Of a stretch of DNA of 7,756 nt, positions 1 to 7,220 are shown in pieces; the stretch's first letter is position 1, and each line of letters begins with the position of its first letter. The notes under the pieces are model-generated. The model was not told where the DNA came from, searched no databases, and saw nothing but the letters and a program-made list of their open reading frames with translations. This stretch comes from Candidatus Tectimicrobiota bacterium (GTDB lineage: Bacteria; JACPSX01). Location: positions 1-7,756 of the forward strand of contig JACPSX010000026.1 in the NCBI GenBank assembly GCA_016193065.1, written 5' to 3'. The translations under genes and the position numbers were made by a program.

Positions 1-1157
1 CTGATGGACTCAGGATCTACCGAGTCTAGCTCCACCCACCCATCGTACAACCGGAAGTTCTGCCCCAGGCGCGATGACTCTTCTACGGGAGGGCACTTCC
101 AGAGATGAAGCTTGGAGCCTATCGTGACGGCCTCCATGGGCAGTTCAATCGTGGTCCGGACCACAAACTCGATCACGCGATGGCCCGTGCACATCATATA
201 GAAGAGTGCCCCCTGGACGTCATCATCATTCGAAAGCGAGCATGCCTCCTTCTGGAGAGCGTCTGTATTGCCGGGGTAAATGATCGGCTTCCATTCTCCC
301 AGATTGTTATAGCGACCCGGCAGGCCAATCTCGTAGAGCCGCTTATCGCCTACTCGCCACTCGTCGCGCAATTCGTCGATCATCCCAACGAAGAAACCGA
401 CATGCGGATGCAGCTCGATGTTCATGCAATCCGTGCCGTTCGGAGATCGTACAAACCTCGCGGAAGCGCCGTTCGAGATGTGAACTTGAAAGCCGGAAAG
501 ACCCCACTCATCTTCTACGAGAAGCTCCAGTACTTCGAATCGGGGCATTTTGTAAAATTGGGGAGAATTCTTGTACGAGAGGCGCTCGGCGAAGTAGATC
601 TCAATCATCGACCGGAGAAAGGTCAAGCAGTTGCGAAAGGATGTTTGAAGTCTATCGTCATTTGGGTTGGGGGCGCAAGGGGATGCAACGCCGAGCAACT
701 CAGCGTCGTAAGAAGCGGTGATCAAGTCCGCGAGGTCATGCCATCCAGCTTCGGAGGCGACACGCGAAGCGTGTTCAGCCATCGCTACGCGCGAGGGCTT
801 TACGACGTTCGGGAATCGCCCCTGGTAGAGGTGCAGGAACGGGGATACCTCATAGGCTTGCCTTAGACAACATCGAATGAGATTGACAACGAGCGACAGC
901 GCATCCTCGCAGTTCCCAATCGAGCGATAATCATCAGGGGTTGCATGATGATGATCCGAGGACGCAAAGCCAGCAAGAACCCTACGGAGCGCAAGCAAGG
1001 GATCAGCTGTGCCGGTTAACCCCTCGACTCGAACGAGAGTGAAGATATATTGAAGTCCGCCCTTCGATTTTGCCTCCCTGAAGAGCTTTTCCAGGCAAGC
1101 CTTCGCATCGCCGCCGTTTGCCCCAGTTGTGGATGTCGGCTCTGGTTCTTCCGGCAT
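1..1157 (-). CDS. Hypothetical protein, 3' end cut off by window edge
   Basis: An uninterrupted minus-strand reading frame begins at the ATG at 1157 and is still open at base 1, giving 385 residues with the C-terminus missing. The start is well fixed: an AGGAG-type Shine-Dalgarno lies seven bases upstream, and an in-frame stop (the TAG ending the upstream gene) lies before it with no other good start between. The N-terminus is low-complexity (PEEPEPTSTTGANGG). Residues from about 20 to 170 look helical, and the rest looks mixed alpha/beta with many aromatic residues. I see no signal peptide, membrane segment or recognisable catalytic motif, and I do not recognise the family. It follows the HEPN-like gene after 111 bases on the same strand, so it may be the last known member of that cassette. 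The gene is supported by frame length and start signals, not by homology. Confidence 0.75.
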   Translation of the reverse strand, partial: MPEEPEPTSTTGANGGDAKACLEKLFREAKSKGGLQYIFTLVRVEGLTGTADPLLALRRVLAGFASSDHHHATPDDYRSIGNCEDALSLVVNLIRCCLRQAYEVSPFLHLYQGRFPNVVKPSRVAMAEHASRVASEAGWHDLADLITASYDAELLGVASPCAPNPNDDRLQTSFRNCLTFLRSMIEIYFAERLSYKNSPQFYKMPRFEVLELLVEDEWGLSGFQVHISNGASARFVRSPNGTDCMNIELHPHVGFFVGMIDELRDEWRVGDKRLYEIGLPGRYNNLGEWKPIIYPGNTDALQKEACSLSNDDDVQGALFYMMCTGHRVIEFVVRTTIELPMEAVTIGSKLHLWKCPPVEESSRLGQNFRLYDGWVELDSVDPESI

Positions 1158-1268
1158 AGCCGGCTCTCCTAAGGAATTCCGCTCTGTTGCTGGTAAACAA
1201 CGGACGAAGGATAAAGCATGGACCGGCTGTATAAGAGAAGAGGCAGCTCTATCACTGATATCCGATAT

Positions 1269-1661
1269 CTACCTCCCGCGAGTTGCTAACTCCCGCAAGC
1301 AGATTCTTACCACGTTTATTGCGATGTCCGCCTGCTCTTTTGAGATCTTGATTCCCTTCTGCACCTGGCGTCCTGGATGTATCAGGTTCCGATACTCTCG
1401 GAGAGCATGGCTGAGGTGAATGGTGGCATTCTGCAAAATGCCAAGTTCTTTCGCAACATCTACAAGATCCCCAAGATTCCATTGAGGTAGGTCTGGAGGT
1501 CGTTTTCCCCGCAGCCGTTCATACTTATCGCACGCCCGGGTGGGATCCGAGGTGAGGGCGTCAAGCAGCATTCCTTCCAGGATTCCGCCGCAGAGGATCA
1601 TGCAGCTTTTCCGTGCGTTGGCCTCATGGATTTTCTGCGCTTCCTGCCAATCCTCCCACAA
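1269..1661 (-). CDS. HEPN-like domain protein, possibly the C-terminal part of a split gene
   Basis: The 130-residue product has an all-helical pattern with a HEPN-type signature. Helix one carries a small-residue stretch (ILCGGILEGMLLDAL, about residues 22-36), followed by NLGDLVDVAKELGIL and then REYRNLIHPGR at about 88-98. R88 and R91, N92, H95 and P96 resemble the R-N-x-H-P motif of HEPN-type proteins. Members of that superfamily are often RNases in toxin-antitoxin and abortive-infection systems, or catalytically dead partner proteins. The R-to-H spacing here is three or six residues, so activity is uncertain. The only available start is TTG at 1661, with no obvious Shine-Dalgarno, and it lies inside the upstream winged-helix gene (38-base overlap). 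The frame is open a little further up (SEAGLREQ), and those residues read naturally into the domain. The gene may therefore be translationally coupled, or it may be the frameshifted second half of one winged-helix plus HEPN protein. Confidence 0.7.
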   Translation of the reverse strand: MWEDWQEAQKIHEANARKSCMILCGGILEGMLLDALTSDPTRACDKYERLRGKRPPDLPQWNLGDLVDVAKELGILQNATIHLSHALREYRNLIHPGRQVQKGIKISKEQADIAINVVRICLRELATRGR

Positions 1662-2166
1662 TTGCTCGCGCAGTCCGGCTTCGCTGATAAACTACATTGT
1701 ATGGTAACCCGACACTCCATTCTTGGTCTCCGAAGCTCCCGCCATCCCCATAAAAATGACCGAGCCGAATCAGCTGTCTCAAGAGGCGAGACTCATCCGC
1801 GCTGAGGTGGAGAGCGGCTTCTACTTCTTGGCTCTTTACCAACTCGATCCCGGGGTCAGCGTCGAACCGGTCCCGAAGATAACTCAGGTACCCGGCGAGC
1901 AACTGTTCGATTTCTTCCCCTTGATCAGTAAGCAAGACTCCAAGAAACGTCAATCCATAGCGTTCTTTCCCGGAGTCCTTTGCTTCGTAGGCGATGCTGC
2001 CTCCCAACTGCTGAAGCGCCGAGCGTACTGCCTCTTTGCCGAACCGATGATGAAGGACCCGGGCAGAAATCCACTCGGCTCGTTGGCGGTAGAAGTCCCA
2101 GACAGCATTCAGGATTTCGCACTGAACAGGGGTAAGCTGCGCCCGCAGGCTCTCAAGATCTGCCAT
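1624..2166 (-). CDS. Winged-helix-like protein, probable DNA-binding or scaffold partner
   Basis: The product has 180 residues. Residues 11-75 (LTPVQCEILNAVWDFY, then a stretch of about 40 residues ending in ERYGLTFLG) have the helix-helix-helix-strand pattern of a winged helix. The turn ERYGLT resembles the wing strand seen in MarR- and PadR-like domains. A helical region follows (about 82-140), then GDQEWSVGLP near 146-155. I have the impression of a recurrent family of about this layout in defence-type loci, but cannot name it. The ATG at 2166 has a GAGG Shine-Dalgarno at a suitable distance. The final 15-20 residues (RSRTARAIVGGLAGSAENP) are low-complexity and overlap the HEPN-like frame, so they may be out-of-frame sequence after a one-base shift. 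If so, the native protein would continue into the HEPN-like domain. It lies 33 bases after the zinc-ribbon gene, consistent with one transcript. Confidence 0.7.
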   Translation of the reverse strand: MADLESLRAQLTPVQCEILNAVWDFYRQRAEWISARVLHHRFGKEAVRSALQQLGGSIAYEAKDSGKERYGLTFLGVLLTDQGEEIEQLLAGYLSYLRDRFDADPGIELVKSQEVEAALHLSADESRLLRQLIRLGHFYGDGGSFGDQEWSVGLPYNVVYQRSRTARAIVGGLAGSAENP

Positions 2167-2199
2167 TCAAGTCCCTCATCTTGCTGGATGGTACCTCTG

Positions 2200-2505
2200 C
2201 TATCTTAATTCCTCCGCGAACCTCTTGCTCCGCCGGGGGAAGCACAGCGCACACCGAAGAACATTGCCCTGGGACATCGCAATCTTGATCGTCAGATGCT
2301 CTCGCCAATAGTCTGGTCGGGCCTTCGAGCGAGTCATGGCCCCACAACTCGGGCAGTGGAACGTAAAGAGGGGGCGCTTTCCGGGCCCCGTACGCTCATG
2401 GAACGAACCAACCACTGGGTGATCTCTGTGATCATGCTCAAACGCGCAACGAGTCAGATCAGGGTCGGCCAGGAGTCCGCTCAGCCAATCGTCACCTGGG
2501 CTCAT
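2200..2505 (-). CDS. Small four-cysteine zinc-ribbon-like protein
   Basis: The 101-residue product has two CxxC knuckles: CPSC at residues 51-54 and CALC at 85-88, separated by about 30 residues. This is the usual layout of a treble-clef or zinc-ribbon fold binding one zinc. The first 45 residues are acidic and histidine-rich (EHDHRDHP) and the C-terminus is basic (RRSKRF). Such proteins commonly bind nucleic acid or act as adaptors, but I cannot name a family. The start is well supported: GAGGGGAAGG precedes ATG at 2505, and this ATG overlaps the stop of the upstream frame as ATGA, a classic sign of translational coupling. The gene therefore appears to belong to one operon with the nuclease-like gene. 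The coupling is seen directly; the zinc binding and function are inferred. Confidence 0.6.
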   Translation of the reverse strand: MSPGDDWLSGLLADPDLTRCAFEHDHRDHPVVGSFHERTGPGKRPLFTFHCPSCGAMTRSKARPDYWREHLTIKIAMSQGNVLRCALCFPRRSKRFAEELR

Positions 2506-2747
2506 CGCGCCCTTCCCCTCGGACTGCCCAATTGCCTTCTCCTCTCCTTCTTGCGGAACAGGTCGTCAAGATACCGCGCCTTGAGCAGTTCGATCATGGT
2601 CTTGAACGCCTTCACCCGGATCGCCGCCCCGCCGCGCCGCTTGATGTGAATCGGGAGTTCGACGAGTTCCTTCAGATGATACACCTTATGGGGGTTGTCG
2701 ATCCACCCCCGCCCTTTTGCCTTCTTCGGGTGTTGTTCTCCTGGCAC
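2502..2747 (-). CDS. C-terminal part of the nuclease-like protein, out of frame
   Basis: This 81-residue frame begins at a GTG and overlaps the end of the nuclease-like gene by 76 bases in another frame. Its middle part (WIDNPHKVYHLKELVELP, then KAFKTMIELLKARYLDDLF) reads like ordinary folded protein, with hydrophobic residues spaced as in helices. In contrast, the end of the nuclease frame over the same bases is glycine- and basic-rich and ends abruptly. The simplest reading is that the two are one protein separated by a one-base shift at the G5 run (C5 on the plus strand at 2706-2710). One extra G would join them into about 305 residues. Alternatively, this is a separate small gene, since AAGGA lies nine bases before the GTG. 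Its stop overlaps the zinc-ribbon start (ATGA), which shows that this frame, not the nuclease frame, is the one coupled to the downstream gene. Confidence 0.6.
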   Translation of the reverse strand: MPGEQHPKKAKGRGWIDNPHKVYHLKELVELPIHIKRRGGAAIRVKAFKTMIELLKARYLDDLFRKKERRRQLGSPRGRAR

Positions 2748-3418
2748 GTCGCCCGTTCCTTAACGGCGAAGTCCCACCAGTCCGGGTCCGTCGAGGTGAT
2801 CATCACCTCGGGCATATCCTTGATCACCTGATCTTGGATGATCCGCTTATTTGACATGATGTCCCCCACGTAATCGAGAAATCGGGCGCTGAGGAACCGG
2901 ATACAAGCAGGCGCTGGGGTCTCCGCGACTAACTGGCGGACGGTTGCCCAGCGGAGGTAGCAAAACTCGCCTGCGCGGAGGTCGGTCCGCTGCCGGAGTC
3001 TCCCCGCGAGAGCCTCGGCTTCAGCCTTGCGGTCGAATTGAGTCACAAGGGCGAGGCGGACGTGATCATACGTGCCCCGCTCATTTTGGAGGATCGCCGC
3101 GTACTTGTCGAGCTGGTTCCTGCCGAGGCGGGTCGCGCCGAGCTTCGATTCCAGGAGGACGAGGAACCGCCCCGGGAGGCGGATTTGGAGGTCGATCCGG
3201 CTCTGCTCGTCTACTCCCCCCGCATAGGGGACCTGGGTCTCAACGGCGATCTGTTTCCGGTCCTTCGGATGCAGGGTCACGGTGGGGATGCGGAGGAAGC
3301 GGAGGAGGGAAAGGAGGGCCAGGGGGTGCGCCTGGAGGATCACGCCGAAGGCGGCGGAGATCTGATCCTCGTGAGCGCCGAAGCGGTTCAGGAGGTGGAA
3401 GACGTTGTCCACGCGCAT
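2672..3418 (-). CDS. PD-(D/E)XK nuclease-like protein, C-terminus frameshifted
   Basis: Counted from ATG 3418, the protein has 248 residues and the core layout of the PD-(D/E)XK nuclease superfamily: Asp76 in SRIDLQIR, then Glu90-Ser-Lys92 in LLESKLG, then a helix with Gln102 (RNQLDKY). An N-terminal helical part (DQISAAFGVILQAHPLALLSLL) resembles the start of PDDEXK_4-type proteins. The expected role is metal-dependent DNA cleavage, for example in a defence or repair context; this is inferred from the motifs. An upstream ATG at 3484 would add 22 residues, but it lies inside a candidate -10 box, while ATG 3418 has GAAGGA eleven bases upstream, so I prefer 3418. The last 10-15 residues (QKGGGGSTTPIRCII) follow a G5 run and look out of frame; the true continuation is the frame at 2502-2747. 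The gene is divergent from the XRE regulator and heads the left block. Confidence 0.75.
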   Translation of the reverse strand: MRVDNVFHLLNRFGAHEDQISAAFGVILQAHPLALLSLLRFLRIPTVTLHPKDRKQIAVETQVPYAGGVDEQSRIDLQIRLPGRFLVLLESKLGATRLGRNQLDKYAAILQNERGTYDHVRLALVTQFDRKAEAEALAGRLRQRTDLRAGEFCYLRWATVRQLVAETPAPACIRFLSARFLDYVGDIMSNKRIIQDQVIKDMPEVMITSTDPDWWDFAVKERATCQENNTRRRQKGGGGSTTPIRCII

Positions 3419-3479
3419 AAGCGTATTGGTCCTTCGGAACGGATAGGCAGATCGGCATTTTCCGCCTAACCACCGCGAG

Positions 3480-3508
3480 ATCATACCCCAGATCAGATTC
3501 TCAGGGAA
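3480..3508 (-). promoter_or_regulatory. Candidate sigma70-type promoter for the nuclease-led operon
   Basis: On the minus strand TATGAT (3485-3480) matches five of six -10 consensus bases. Seventeen bases upstream lies TTCCCT (3508-3503), a weak -35 with three of six matches. Transcription would begin near 3474, leaving a leader of about 55 bases before the ATG at 3418. The ATG at 3484 falls inside the -10 box, which argues against that start. The site lies in the intergenic region shared with the divergent XRE gene. This is a consensus match only. Confidence 0.35.
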
Positions 3509-3523
3509 TACGCCCCCAGCCGC

Positions 3524-3739
3524 GTGGCCAGACGGTCAGCGGCGTATCGGCTGTCCCTCCGGCGCCTCCGGGAGGCCCGCCTTGCGGTGGGGCTGACGCA
3601 GGTGGAGGTGGCGGCGAAGCTCCGGCGGTCGCAGAGCACCGTCTGCAAATGCGAGTCCGGGGAGCAGAAGGTGGACGTGGTGGAGTTGGCGGGGTTCGCG
3701 AGGCTTTATGGCAGGAACTTGGGCGACCTCCTTGAGTAA
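3524..3739 (+). CDS. XRE-family helix-turn-helix regulator
   Basis: This is the only plus-strand gene I support. It is a 71-residue Cro/C1-type HTH domain almost without extra sequence: LREARLAVGLTQVEVAAKL, then RRSQSTVCKCESGEQKVDVVELAGFARLYG. GLTQVEVA is helix 2 plus the turn, and QSTVCKCESGE is the recognition-helix end with the conserved Glu-Ser-Gly-Glu. Such stand-alone domains usually act as dimeric repressors, often of their own locus or as antitoxins. The start is GTG at 3524; no strong Shine-Dalgarno is close to it and no good alternative is seen, so the N-terminus is uncertain by a few residues. It is divergent from the nuclease gene and therefore a likely controller of that promoter. 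Its stop is 12 bases from the stop of the convergent HEPN-type gene. It is very GC-rich, like the nuclease gene. Confidence 0.85.
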   Translation: MARRSAAYRLSLRRLREARLAVGLTQVEVAAKLRRSQSTVCKCESGEQKVDVVELAGFARLYGRNLGDLLE

Positions 3740-3751
3740 CGCGGAACTGCG

Positions 3752-5062
3752 CTACGTGCGCGAGACAATATCCAGGCGGCCGAACCTGAACCAGGCGACT
3801 GTCGTCTCCGGGAACGTCTTGAAGTGAATCGTGAGATGAAGGTCCCGTTCAAACCGCGGATCTCGCAATTTCAGTAGTTCAGCCGCCTCCGTCGCGACCT
3901 TCTCCAGTTTCTCCCTGAGCTCCTCCTTTTCAACGGCTGATGAGTACAGCATAACATCCATTCTGACGCTATGGCGCGGCCGTAGCCAGACCAGCGAATA
4001 GGAAATCAGTTCGTGATGCCTCTCCCGTAGTGCCTCTGTTACCTTCCTCAGTTCCGGTGATGCCTCAATGTCATCTCTTCGCTCTGCGAGCAGTTGAACC
4101 AGAGAGACTACCGCCCAGATACTATCCCGCAACAACTCTTCCCGTGTTTCGAACACGCGGCCGCTCTTATGAACGACATCGTTCCGCCACCTTACCACTC
4201 TCAAGACCTTGTCTAGATCGACATCTGCCAAATAAGACTCGTGAAGCGTCAGATTTAGAAGCGCAGACAGTCGAGCGGTAAGGCCGACTTCAGGCAACAG
4301 AAAATGATCGATTCTATCCTTTGGTACCCCACGCGAGCTTAAGTGCGCGCGGAGGAACTGAGCTAAAACGATCTCCAGGCCGATCACTGATTCGACAACG
4401 GCCAATCGATAATTTCCTTTTCGCATATGACCGATTGTGTTCGTGACGAATTCACTCTCAGGCGGTGGCTCCTTCCTCTCCTCCAAGGCCTCCACAATGT
4501 CGTCCCAGAACACAGTCTTGATTTCCACGGTTTCCCGAAATTCCTCATCATGCCCGGCAGCTGTACCGAACAGGCCGGCCAACAAGCCAGCATACGGGTT
4601 CGCTTCCGCCTCTAGCACGGTCTGCCAACCCTTGCCGTCTTCCGATACCTCGACTTTCCATTTCCTCAGGCACGCCTCGATGTCCTTCTCGCTCGTGATG
4701 TTTTCGCGCAATCTTTCGGGCAGTTCCGGAGCCATTCCAAAGTTACGGATCGCCTTGCAAACCCGACTTCCAAGACGACGAATGAGTTGAAGCAGGTCTG
4801 AACGCCTATCGGGAGGGAGCAGTCCGGACAGCGGAGGAACTCGTTGGCTCTCCGGACGATCGCACAACACCAGTTGGAGTCCTTCCGCTCTGCGCATGAA
4901 CCTCCACGTCACCTGTATGGTTTTGATATCGACCACCTCGCCACCAGGAAGCGAGAGTCTTGCGGAATAGCCCTTGTACATGAAGTCAGCGTATACGTCG
5001 AGCCCTTGCTCGTGAAAGCTAAAGAGGTAGATCTCACATGGGATCAGGAAACGAAGTTGCAT
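3752..5062 (-). CDS. Large HEPN-type protein with RNDVVH motif
   Basis: The product has 436 residues. Residues about 215-330 look like a HEPN domain: a long helix (YRLAVVESVIGLEIVLAQFL, 218-237), a leucine-rich helix (LTARLSALLNLTL, 261-273), and RWRNDVVHKSGR at 291-302. Arg293, Asn294 and His298 form the Rx4H RNase motif of the superfamily, so RNA cleavage is a reasonable prediction. The N-terminal 200 residues are mixed and unrecognised; the C-terminal 100 residues are charged with a predicted helix (EKEELREKLEKVATEAAELLKL) and end in beta-like sequence. I choose ATG 5062, with GGAGAAG six bases upstream; the GTG at 5077 would add five residues and place that Shine-Dalgarno inside the gene. 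It starts 37 bases after the AbiGi-like gene and is probably cotranscribed with it. Its composition is less GC-rich than its XRE neighbour. Confidence 0.8.
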   Translation of the reverse strand: MQLRFLIPCEIYLFSFHEQGLDVYADFMYKGYSARLSLPGGEVVDIKTIQVTWRFMRRAEGLQLVLCDRPESQRVPPLSGLLPPDRRSDLLQLIRRLGSRVCKAIRNFGMAPELPERLRENITSEKDIEACLRKWKVEVSEDGKGWQTVLEAEANPYAGLLAGLFGTAAGHDEEFRETVEIKTVFWDDIVEALEERKEPPPESEFVTNTIGHMRKGNYRLAVVESVIGLEIVLAQFLRAHLSSRGVPKDRIDHFLLPEVGLTARLSALLNLTLHESYLADVDLDKVLRVVRWRNDVVHKSGRVFETREELLRDSIWAVVSLVQLLAERRDDIEASPELRKVTEALRERHHELISYSLVWLRPRHSVRMDVMLYSSAVEKEELREKLEKVATEAAELLKLRDPRFERDLHLTIHFKTFPETTVAWFRFGRLDIVSRT

Positions 5063-5099
5063 ACGCCACTTCTCCACTCAGGAGTAAGCTCTCTAACCG

Positions 5100-5720
5100 C
5101 TATTGGCTCTGCTCCAAGGGTTTTGGGAGGCCTTGGCAGATCACTTCCAAGGGCAGGATGCACTTCGGAAGCGACTTGAAGTCCTCGTCATCTTCTAGCA
5201 TCTCCTGCAGGTGACCCACCTCAGTTAGCGACCTGACGATCGCCGCGACGAAGCGTTTGGGGAGGCGGAATTCGTGGGGGCATCTCCACTCTCTCTCGTG
5301 AAGCCAGCTCACCCAACCTTCCTCCGAGACTTCGAGCTTTACTACCCTCCAGAGTTGATCCCTGGGCACGTCAAGCCGTCTCTGCTCGGTCCCGGAAAGA
5401 TAGAGGACCGGTCGCGCGCCTCGCTCATAAGCGGTCCGCTTGCTCACCACTACGCCGTAGGGTTCATATCGCTCGGCGTTTTCCGGCGTACACACGGACT
5501 TCAGGGCGTGGAAGGGGACATCCATGAAACATGCCGCTGGTATCGATCCTTTAATGAACCCCGTCTGCGTGGTGCTGCCTCGCACCACGCCGCCTCTCAG
5601 AATGTTGACCAGGTTCTCGAAGCCGGAGCGGCCCCTCCGAGCACGAGTCAAGTGAATCAGGTAAGGCGTGAGGTCGGGCCGGGTCCAAAAAGGGAGCCTG
5701 CGGTAATCAATCGCCGACAT
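5100..5720 (-). CDS. AbiGi/DUF2971-like protein, possible abortive-infection component
   Basis: The product has 206 residues. It follows a pattern I associate with AbiGi- and DUF2971-type proteins: an N-terminal PYLIHLTR plus a helix (FENLVNILRGGVV), then AACFMDVPFHALK at 63-74, YEPYGVVVSKRTAYERGARPVLYL at about 85-108, and HEREWRCPHEF at 141-151. The F-D/E-x-P, YG-hydrophobic-SK, GA-x-PV-x-YL and E-x-EWR elements are the recognisable ones. AbiGi is known as the antitoxin-like half of a lactococcal phage-resistance pair. The layout also loosely recalls ADP-ribosyltransferase-type folds, but I cannot confirm catalytic residues. Start ATG 5720 is well supported by GGGAAGGA seven bases upstream. 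It is the first gene of a pair with the large HEPN-type gene, suggesting a two-component defence or toxin-antitoxin unit. The family assignment is from memory of motif patterns and is tentative. Confidence 0.6.
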   Translation of the reverse strand: MSAIDYRRLPFWTRPDLTPYLIHLTRARRGRSGFENLVNILRGGVVRGSTTQTGFIKGSIPAACFMDVPFHALKSVCTPENAERYEPYGVVVSKRTAYERGARPVLYLSGTEQRRLDVPRDQLWRVVKLEVSEEGWVSWLHEREWRCPHEFRLPKRFVAAIVRSLTEVGHLQEMLEDDEDFKSLPKCILPLEVICQGLPKPLEQSQ

Positions 5721-5951: not shown

Positions 5952-6134
5952 CTACGGCCGGGGCTGACGGGCCGTGATCCGCCACAGGTAGATCGTCCGC
6001 GGCCTGCCTGACTCGTCCAGGGGCTGCCGGACCGCCTCGGGCCGCCAATCGCCCATGTCAAAGTCATGCGAGACGACGACGGCGCCGGGGCGCAACTGAC
6101 TCTGGAGGGCGGGCCGGAGCTTCAGGTTCGCCTC
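5952..6134 (-). pseudogene. C-terminal remnant of a class I SAM-dependent methyltransferase
   Basis: About 60 residues ending at the TGA at 5952 read as the tail of a methyltransferase: EANLKLRPAL, LRPGAVVVSHDFDMGDW, then RTIYLWRIT. The NLKLRP - PG-x-x-VVSHDFDMGDW - LYLW pattern is familiar from the final strands of class I methyltransferases, where the S-H/N-x-FDMGDW segment follows the last core helix. The SAM-binding GxGxG part and everything before it are missing. Upstream sequence in this frame (PSRYETEGVHSSSG and similar) is only the shadow of hicA, so the remnant begins where the hicA homology ends, near 6135-6143. There is no start or Shine-Dalgarno for the fragment. I infer that the hicBA module replaced the 5' part by insertion or deletion. 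Confidence 0.65.
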
Positions 6135-6274
6135 CCGGCTTCGATTTCTGCGTGTCTGGGCACAGGCTGCTTCTGGCCGGTTTTGGGATTGAAGTAGATA
6201 TCGTGGCGGGAGCCGGACCGGAGGAGTCCGCAGCCGTCCCGGACCAGATGACGAATGAACTCCCTCCGTTTCAT
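6122..6274 (-). CDS. hicA: HicA-family toxin (mRNA interferase), C-terminus altered
   Basis: The 50-residue product matches HicA: KRREFIRHLVRDGC at the start, LLRSGSRHDIYFNPKTG in the middle with the catalytic-type His24, and VPRHAEI near the end. HicA toxins have a small double-stranded-RNA-binding-like fold, cleave mRNA, and are neutralised by HicB. Family members usually run to about 58-80 residues and finish with a helix of the type LARKI-x-x-x-L. Here that helix is missing: after AEI the protein reads EAGRRT and stops, because the sequence passes into the methyltransferase remnant. The loss of the last helix could reduce activity. The ATG at 6274 overlaps the hicB stop as ATGA, so the two are translationally coupled. 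The gene is short and easily missed by a length cutoff. Confidence 0.85.
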   Translation of the reverse strand: MKRREFIRHLVRDGCGLLRSGSRHDIYFNPKTGQKQPVPRHAEIEAGRRT

Positions 6275-6459
6275 ACCGCGATGGCTTTTTCGCGGTGGTC
6301 CTGGGGCACATCCTCCAGGATCATCATCCGGTATGCGTCTCGCAGATTCGTCTCGAGTTCCTTCAGGGTGCGACCTTGCGTCATGATCTCAGGATACTCC
6401 TTGAGTTTCCCGAGCCAGAACTTCTCCCCTTTCCAGTAGATCATCGTCATCTTGCTCAC
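6271..6459 (-). CDS. hicB: HicB-family antitoxin, short single-domain form
   Basis: The product has 62 residues from the GTG at 6459 and the HicB N-terminal fold: TMIYWKGEKFWLGKLKEYPE, then TQGRTLKELETNLRDAYRMM. The PE-x-x-TQG-x-T-x-x-E-x-x-x-NL-x-x-A pattern is the family signature of the partial RNase H-like domain that covers the HicA active site. No DNA-binding domain follows, so this is the short type that may need HicA, or another factor, for operator binding. I prefer GTG 6459 because GGAGG lies five bases upstream; ATG 6450 gives the protein three residues shorter with worse spacing, and ATG 6495 would add twelve unlikely residues. Order is antitoxin first, then toxin, with a four-base overlap. 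Confidence 0.88.
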   Translation of the reverse strand: MSKMTMIYWKGEKFWLGKLKEYPEIMTQGRTLKELETNLRDAYRMMILEDVPQDHREKAIAV

Positions 6460-6628
6460 GACAGCCTCCAGGGAACTTGGTTGAGTCCGGTACATCGATA
6501 CTTGAAGTGCGCCTGTCCTCCTTGTCGGCGACCGACGACCGAGGCTATGCAGACACAGATGTTTCGGCGAGCGCGGAGGAAGCGCAACCGGTCAAGCGGT
6601 TACCACGAGGGAGAGGCAGTGTCATGTG

Positions 6629-6970
6629 TCAGGCCCTCCTCCGTGTTTGTGCCTCCCGGATGATCCCCTCGCTGATCCAGCTCCGCATCAGGGCTTGGTA
6701 GCTCAAGCTCTTCCTGCGGGCCAGTTGTTTGGCCCGTGCGATCTGGCCCTCCTCCAGTCGAAGCGTCACCGGCTTCTTCCGACTCCGCTGCAAGGTGATG
6801 CGCCGGGCTCTGGGGGATACTTCAATCTCCACTGGTTCAAGCTGGTCCCAGATGTCCGCGAGGCTGTGCGTGGACCAGAAGTGCGCTTCCTCGGCCTCAT
6901 TTTTAAAGCGGGGGACCTCATCCAGCGACTTGAGATATCGCATGCGCCTCGGCGTCTTACTTTCTGGCAT
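6629..6970 (-). CDS. brnA: CopG/BrnA-type antitoxin of a BrnT system
   Basis: The 113-residue product has two recognisable parts. Residues about 18-45 (VPRFKNEAEEAHFWSTHSLADIW) are the N-terminal signature of the CopG_antitoxin/BrnA group, which makes the main contact with the toxin. Residues 66-103 (KPVTLRLEEGQIARAKQLARRKSLSYQALMRSWISEGI) are a ribbon-helix-helix DNA-binding domain, in which the strand residues read the operator. Such antitoxins repress their own promoter as complexes with BrnT. ATG 6970 lies inside the end of brnT (14-base overlap) and has AGGAGAGG at good distance, so coupled translation is likely. The C-terminus (REAQTRRRA) is basic and probably unstructured. The symbol is given by partner and domain; CopG family antitoxin is the more cautious name. 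Confidence 0.85.
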   Translation of the reverse strand: MPESKTPRRMRYLKSLDEVPRFKNEAEEAHFWSTHSLADIWDQLEPVEIEVSPRARRITLQRSRKKPVTLRLEEGQIARAKQLARRKSLSYQALMRSWISEGIIREAQTRRRA

Positions 6971-7220
6971 AACTGCGCCTCTCCTTGAGAGTCATGTCTC
7001 GTGCGGTTATGGGTCGCACCACACCGCTTCCAAGATATCGGAAGTGTACCAGCAAGAATCTCCCGTCTTCCGTCGTCCCCGCCGCCTGATATCGGCCCTC
7101 CCGCGTCCGTCGGACCTTGGGCCTGCGCCGGAGGACCTGCTCAATCTCCCATTGCGCGACACCATGGGTCGCGATGTGATCAATGTTGTCGTCATCCCAG
7201 AGGAAAGATGCAACCCTCAC
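6957..7220 (-). CDS. brnT: BrnT-family toxin (RNase)
   Basis: The 87-residue product matches BrnT from end to end: FLWDDDNIDHIATHGVAQWEIEQVL at the N-terminus, a basic strand region (RRTREGRYQAAG), then FLLVHFRYLG, and the typical ending RPITARDMTLKERRSYAR. BrnT is a RelE-fold ribonuclease that stops growth under stress and is bound by the ribbon-helix-helix BrnA. The WD-x-x-N-x-x-H-x-x-x-HG pattern and ITARDM are the diagnostic elements. Length is normal. The start is GTG 7220 with no clear Shine-Dalgarno; a candidate promoter ends only a few bases upstream, so the message may be nearly leaderless. Toxin precedes antitoxin, the usual brnTA order. Confidence 0.9.
   Translation of the reverse strand: MRVASFLWDDDNIDHIATHGVAQWEIEQVLRRRPKVRRTREGRYQAAGTTEDGRFLLVHFRYLGSGVVRPITARDMTLKERRSYARK

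Follow-up and report, generated by a model that had tools for sequence, protein, structure and literature searches.

Do the minus-strand genes at positions 1–3523 of a short bacterial contig form a single defence cassette? A preliminary description made from the letters alone had proposed that they do, listing five genes: a PD-(D/E)XK nuclease, a four-Cys protein, a winged helix, a HEPN protein and a large unrecognised protein, under a divergent XRE regulator. The window, that is, the whole stretch of DNA analysed here, covers contig C10 from end to end (7756 bp); the source is a metagenome-assembled genome whose 294 contigs total 2.9 Mb. The 3′ end of the block consequently lies beyond the contig. 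The genomes that we searched included no phylum-level relative of the source genome. We found the ORFs at the place and on the strand described, running from 3484 down to 3 with lengths of 270, 81, 101, 180, 130 and at least 385 aa in the ORF list, and faced by the XRE gene at 3524–3739 on the plus strand. A sequence scan of the block returned no consensus promoter or terminator above chance that would separate or unite its genes. The features of the block are as follows.

3524–3739, plus strand: XRE/Cro-type HTH regulator, 71 aa, GTG start, divergent to the nuclease (HTH_31, E 9.6e-11; HTH_3, E 6.2e-7)
2672–3484, minus strand: PD-(D/E)XK_4 nuclease ORF, 270 aa (PDDEXK_4, PDC-S26 and GC-frame plot)
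2502–2747, minus strand: 81-codon frame (GC-frame switch at ~2750; third-position G+C 0.74)
2200–2505, minus strand: 101-aa protein with CPSC and CALC pairs, a putative zinc ribbon (Cys motifs)
1687–2166, minus strand: N-terminal module of ~150 aa, the former "winged helix" (homology to the G105 and G242 proteins)
1269–1691, minus strand: AbiJ/DUF4145-like HEPN domain with an R-E-Y-R-N-L-I-H-P motif (homology to G105 and DUF4145)
3–1157, minus strand: orphan protein of at least 385 aa that leaves the contig end (ORF only)

The two ORFs described as separate winged-helix and HEPN genes turned out to match one chain. A single 513-aa protein of genome G105 (bin RS_12_30 ZL285.bin.30) aligned with the products of both the 180-aa and the 130-aa ORF (E 3e-33, query residues 17–297), the HEPN part at 38% identity over 135 aa (E 5e-30). 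In the window, module and HEPN occupy different frames: the 180-aa ORF extends to 1624 with its last part out of frame, and, judged by G+C at the codon positions, its frame yields to the HEPN frame near 1690–1715. An in-frame TAG directly precedes the first conserved HEPN residue, and homology begins at the first codon after it. The listed start of the HEPN ORF, a TTG at 1661, is the only plausible one; it has no Shine-Dalgarno sequence and lies ten codons past the point where homology starts. Since G105 carries both parts in a single chain and the homology passes the TTG back to the TAG, we conclude that the two ORFs correspond to one protein of the closest relative and are broken apart here. 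The block does exist, but it reads better as four genes, of which at least one is broken, than as five intact genes. Because the HEPN half is severed from the module, by either a frame break or a nonsense codon, the window copy is probably inactive or impaired.

Alternatively, module and HEPN might be two overlapping genes, the second of which would begin with the ATG that adjoins the TAG and would be inactivated by a stop at its second codon. The sequence ATG-TAG-TTT-ATC does stand exactly at the HEPN start, and in the HEPN protein of an Acidobacteria relative (L029) a Met stands five residues ahead of the conserved start. The single chain of G105, however, makes this arrangement unlikely, and the GC-frame switch and the homology are equally compatible with a +1 shift. 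G105 is the only relative with module and HEPN in one chain; its linker is ~60 aa longer.

The HEPN-like character of the broken protein was confirmed. The motif R-E-Y-R-N-L-I-H fits the R(x6)H signature of HEPN domains, and its R and H are common to relatives from several phyla. The domain also matches the profile of the DUF4145 HEPN family (PF13643), a family with a known restriction-modification (R-M) association, although weakly (E 0.02; 15.3 bits, below the Pfam cut-off of 23.1). Motif and homology together suggest a predicted RNase of AbiJ/DUF4145-like type.

The N-terminal module is the less familiar half. It is homologous to the G105 protein (locus L022, 50 bits) and to a kinase protein of genome G242 (locus L023, 77 bits), whereas none of 500 shuffled copies exceeded 28 bits. 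Its residues 1–160 matched no Pfam, PADLOC or NCBIfam model, AbiJ-NTD1-5 included, and no wHTH profile of Pfam matched the putative winged helix. An AlphaFold model was mostly helical (pLDDT 37). The G242 protein carries the module ahead of a Ser/Thr kinase (PF00069, E 1.6e-34) with matches to mad6, PD-T4-6 and Stk2. The whole protein, of 890 aa (L023:8513–11185), consists of an extra N-terminal domain common with G105 (recognized by eye), the module and the kinase; upstream of it is a Schlafen AlbA_2 gene. As a second bacterium thus carries it on a Ser/Thr kinase, the module probably serves as an exchangeable trigger domain, by analogy with the N-terminal domains of AbiJ and Stk2.

AbiJ-type HEPN RNases have exchangeable N-terminal domains (AbiJ-NTD1-5), which are also found on kinases (Anantharaman et al. 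2013, PMC3710099). The window protein resembles them in the C-terminal HEPN domain with R(x6)H, in a variable N-terminal domain that occurs on other effectors, such as kinases, as well, and in the R-M association of its relatives. It differs in the module, which none of the three model libraries covers and which is not one of AbiJ-NTD1-5, and further in that its chain is broken by the TAG or frame change between module and HEPN. The likeness to the defence kinases Stk2 and PD-T4-6 lies in the exchange itself: a kinase of this class bears the window's module in G242, and, in a related swap, a HEPN protein of genome G055 (L025:6953–7849) bears the N-terminal domain of Stk2 (E 5.7e-12). The effector in the window, in contrast, is HEPN and not a kinase.

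We found relatives of the HEPN domain at 26–39% identity in plasmid records of Paraburkholderia, Deinococcus, Prevotella and Streptomyces, and others in several genomes; their N-termini differ. One relative (L030) lies between HsdM and HsdS/HsdR genes, with type I R-M on both sides. In Paraburkholderia a PIN protein adjoins the relative, in Streptomyces a large AAA protein (AAA-helicase) and TIGR02679/TIGR02680 genes are near it, and in G055 (L025) it has nearby an apparently long CRISPR-like repeat array, seen as repeated peptides only. Such settings (within a type I R-M operon and beside PIN, AAA-helicase and CRISPR-like loci), together with the module swap with a kinase, bear out the defence character proposed for the HEPN protein. 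Beside the intact relative in G105 (L022:9226–11822), we also observed a row of genes for a QueC-like protein, a PfkB and nucleoside deoxyribosyltransferase fusion and an OGG-HhH glycosylase, with N6 methylase and KAP NTPase genes near. Type IV CBASS systems carry QueC/OGG sets, which this row resembles. A Csm3 match of the G105 protein (E 1e-4) was judged spurious.

At the other end of the block, the nuclease and its regulator were recovered as proposed. The nuclease scored 24.9 bits against PDDEXK_4 (PF14281; Pfam cut-off 22.3) and matched the PADLOC model PDC-S26 weakly (E 1.8e-5), and its D...ExK active-site motif (RIDL...ESK) is intact; the XRE protein matched HTH_31 (E 1e-10, rounded) on the plus strand. 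The real start of the nuclease is likely near 3420 (MRVDNVFHLL). By G+C at the codon positions, the nuclease frame yields to the 81-codon frame near 2750, and residues encoded past ~2750 are probably out of frame. The 2502–2747 frame, whose third-position G+C is like that of the nuclease, probably encodes either the nuclease C-terminus after a frame shift or a small protein of its own. It showed a very weak resemblance to Phd/YefM (Pfam E 0.073) and had no relatives in 192 genomes searched. The PD-(D/E)XK core is common to the window nuclease, the PDDEXK_4 nucleases and PDC-S26, a PADLOC candidate. The window nuclease, however, is divergent: the match is limited to ~50–100 residues, plasmids, phages, viral contigs and 290 genomes yielded no close relative, and the 16 PF14281 genes of other genomes are very distant from it (at best 27% over 109 aa). 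The PDC-S26-like match lends the defence character claimed for this protein slight support. The nuclease, with its XRE repressor, would be a separate DNase gene, probably of defence type.

The two remaining proteins could be described, and neither could be placed in a family. The product of 2200–2505 has the two CxxC pairs (CxxC...CxxC) of the proposed four-Cys protein, and had no relatives in the collections searched; two weak genome matches were rejected, both being antisense to unrelated genes. The unrecognised protein of more than 385 residues is, as described, an ORF without match that runs off the contig. No relative of it was found in Pfam, PADLOC, NCBIfam, PHROGs, PDB sequences, plasmids, phages, 290 genomes, genome_contigs or viral contigs, and four matches to phage minor tail proteins, over 54 residues with E ~0.03, were put down to chance. 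Its structure prediction was poor (pLDDT 37), with an N-terminal half helical at low confidence. A concatenated query had no match among the viral contigs, and a PDB profile search with A2 returned only FGFR kinases (E 0.035 or worse), which were taken as chance.

The suspicion that this copy is decaying was strengthened by the comparison with the rest of the genome. Two probable frame breaks fall within the 3.5 kb of the block, and nearby, at 6122–6274, a HicA gene is truncated (profile positions 2–45 of 58, without the C-terminus), which is probably another frame break. Elsewhere in the same genome we recovered ~55 ABC_tran domains; because only one of them has an internal stop, indels appear to be rare genome-wide. 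These counts point to local decay at this contig, with a contig of low quality as the less likely alternative. It could be supposed that all the genes are intact and functional and that the breaks are assembly or sequencing errors, as the contig is short (7756 bp) and metagenome-assembled; one stop in ~55 domains, as opposed to two probable breaks and a truncated HicA on this contig, makes us doubt it.

Further minus-strand genes were noted in the remainder of the contig. A BrnT/CopG(BrnA) toxin–antitoxin pair lies at 6629–7220 and a HicA/HicB-like pair at 6122–6495. At 3752–5077 / 5100–5720 there are a 206-aa AbiGi/DUF2971-like protein (AbiGi E 2.5e-4) and then a 441-aa protein that contains RNDVVH, a motif of the kind usual in HEPN domains. 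The AbiGi/DUF2971-like protein has relatives in 23 plasmid records (for example, Nostoc, Vibrio and Paenibacillus); the 441-aa protein had no relative in plasmids and did not adjoin the AbiGi/DUF2971-like relatives in the three records viewed. On contig C1 of the same genome (L036), RAMP-type genes and the start of a Cas10-like ORF, seen by eye only, suggest a type III CRISPR locus.

Whether the block is one cassette was assessed by recurrence and by composition. Of twelve loci that carry a relative of the HEPN domain or of the module, none holds the nuclease, the Zn protein or the orphan; the comparison has limited power, as none of these three has a recognised orthologue, and the absence weighs correspondingly less. 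None of 16 other genomes had other window proteins within ~1.5 kb of its PDDEXK_4 genes. As far as could be tested, homologues of the individual genes occur only separately, the outcome that the preliminary description itself named as refuting the cassette. Codon composition divides the block into two: third-position G+C is 0.79–0.88 for XRE and nuclease (XRE 0.88), 0.65 for the Zn protein and 0.56–0.63 for module-HEPN and orphan. Because the partners are missing in the twelve relative loci and the composition splits the block, the five-gene cassette is unsupported, and on present evidence it does not belong in lists of candidate systems. In a known HEPN family, EC042_2821, a single protein does unite wHTH, a DUF3644-like HEPN, REase and ZnR (PMC3710099). 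Its list of domain types is that of the window block; the window parts, however, are not fused in one protein, and the Pfam search gave no DUF3644 match.

A single undescribed operon, in which an XRE-controlled PD-(D/E)XK DNase with a zinc-ribbon protein, a wHTH-HEPN RNase and an orphan sensor would cut DNA first and RNA as suicide, is suggested by the common strand, the short gaps, effector types typical of defence and no terminator clearly between the genes, but it is very improbable given the missing partners near all 12 relatives and in the 16 PDDEXK_4 genomes, the differing composition and the union of the supposed third and fourth genes in one protein of a relative. We see just as slim a chance that a rare undescribed two-nuclease defence operon, combining a DNase and a HEPN RNase with an adaptor (the zinc-ribbon protein) and a sensor (the orphan), has left these four genes behind and that its relatives lie outside the searched collections.

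Our preferred reading, to which we assign a probability of roughly 0.6, is that a defence or toxin island is decaying here and that the block is a piece of it and not one cassette, with a solo nuclease and its XRE regulator on one side and a separate HEPN protein of abortive-infection type on the other. The HEPN protein of the locus most likely belongs to the AbiJ type, as a variant with a new N-terminal part. In working relatives, the ~150-aa module would act as a sensor or regulatory domain that holds the C-terminal HEPN RNase silent. A phage-related trigger would cause the module to release the HEPN domain, which, with its Rx6H motif, may then cut cellular RNA and bring about growth stop or death of the infected cell. 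By analogy with AbiJ, both the RNase activity and the trigger are what we would expect of such relatives.

In kind, the locus is ordinary: an abortive-infection HEPN protein with an exchangeable N-terminus, a solo nuclease and a decayed island. The modestly new element is the N-terminal module without a model in the searched domain libraries, which is found on both HEPN and kinase effectors. If it is an interchangeable trigger domain, the module may be used as a query for further abortive-infection proteins.
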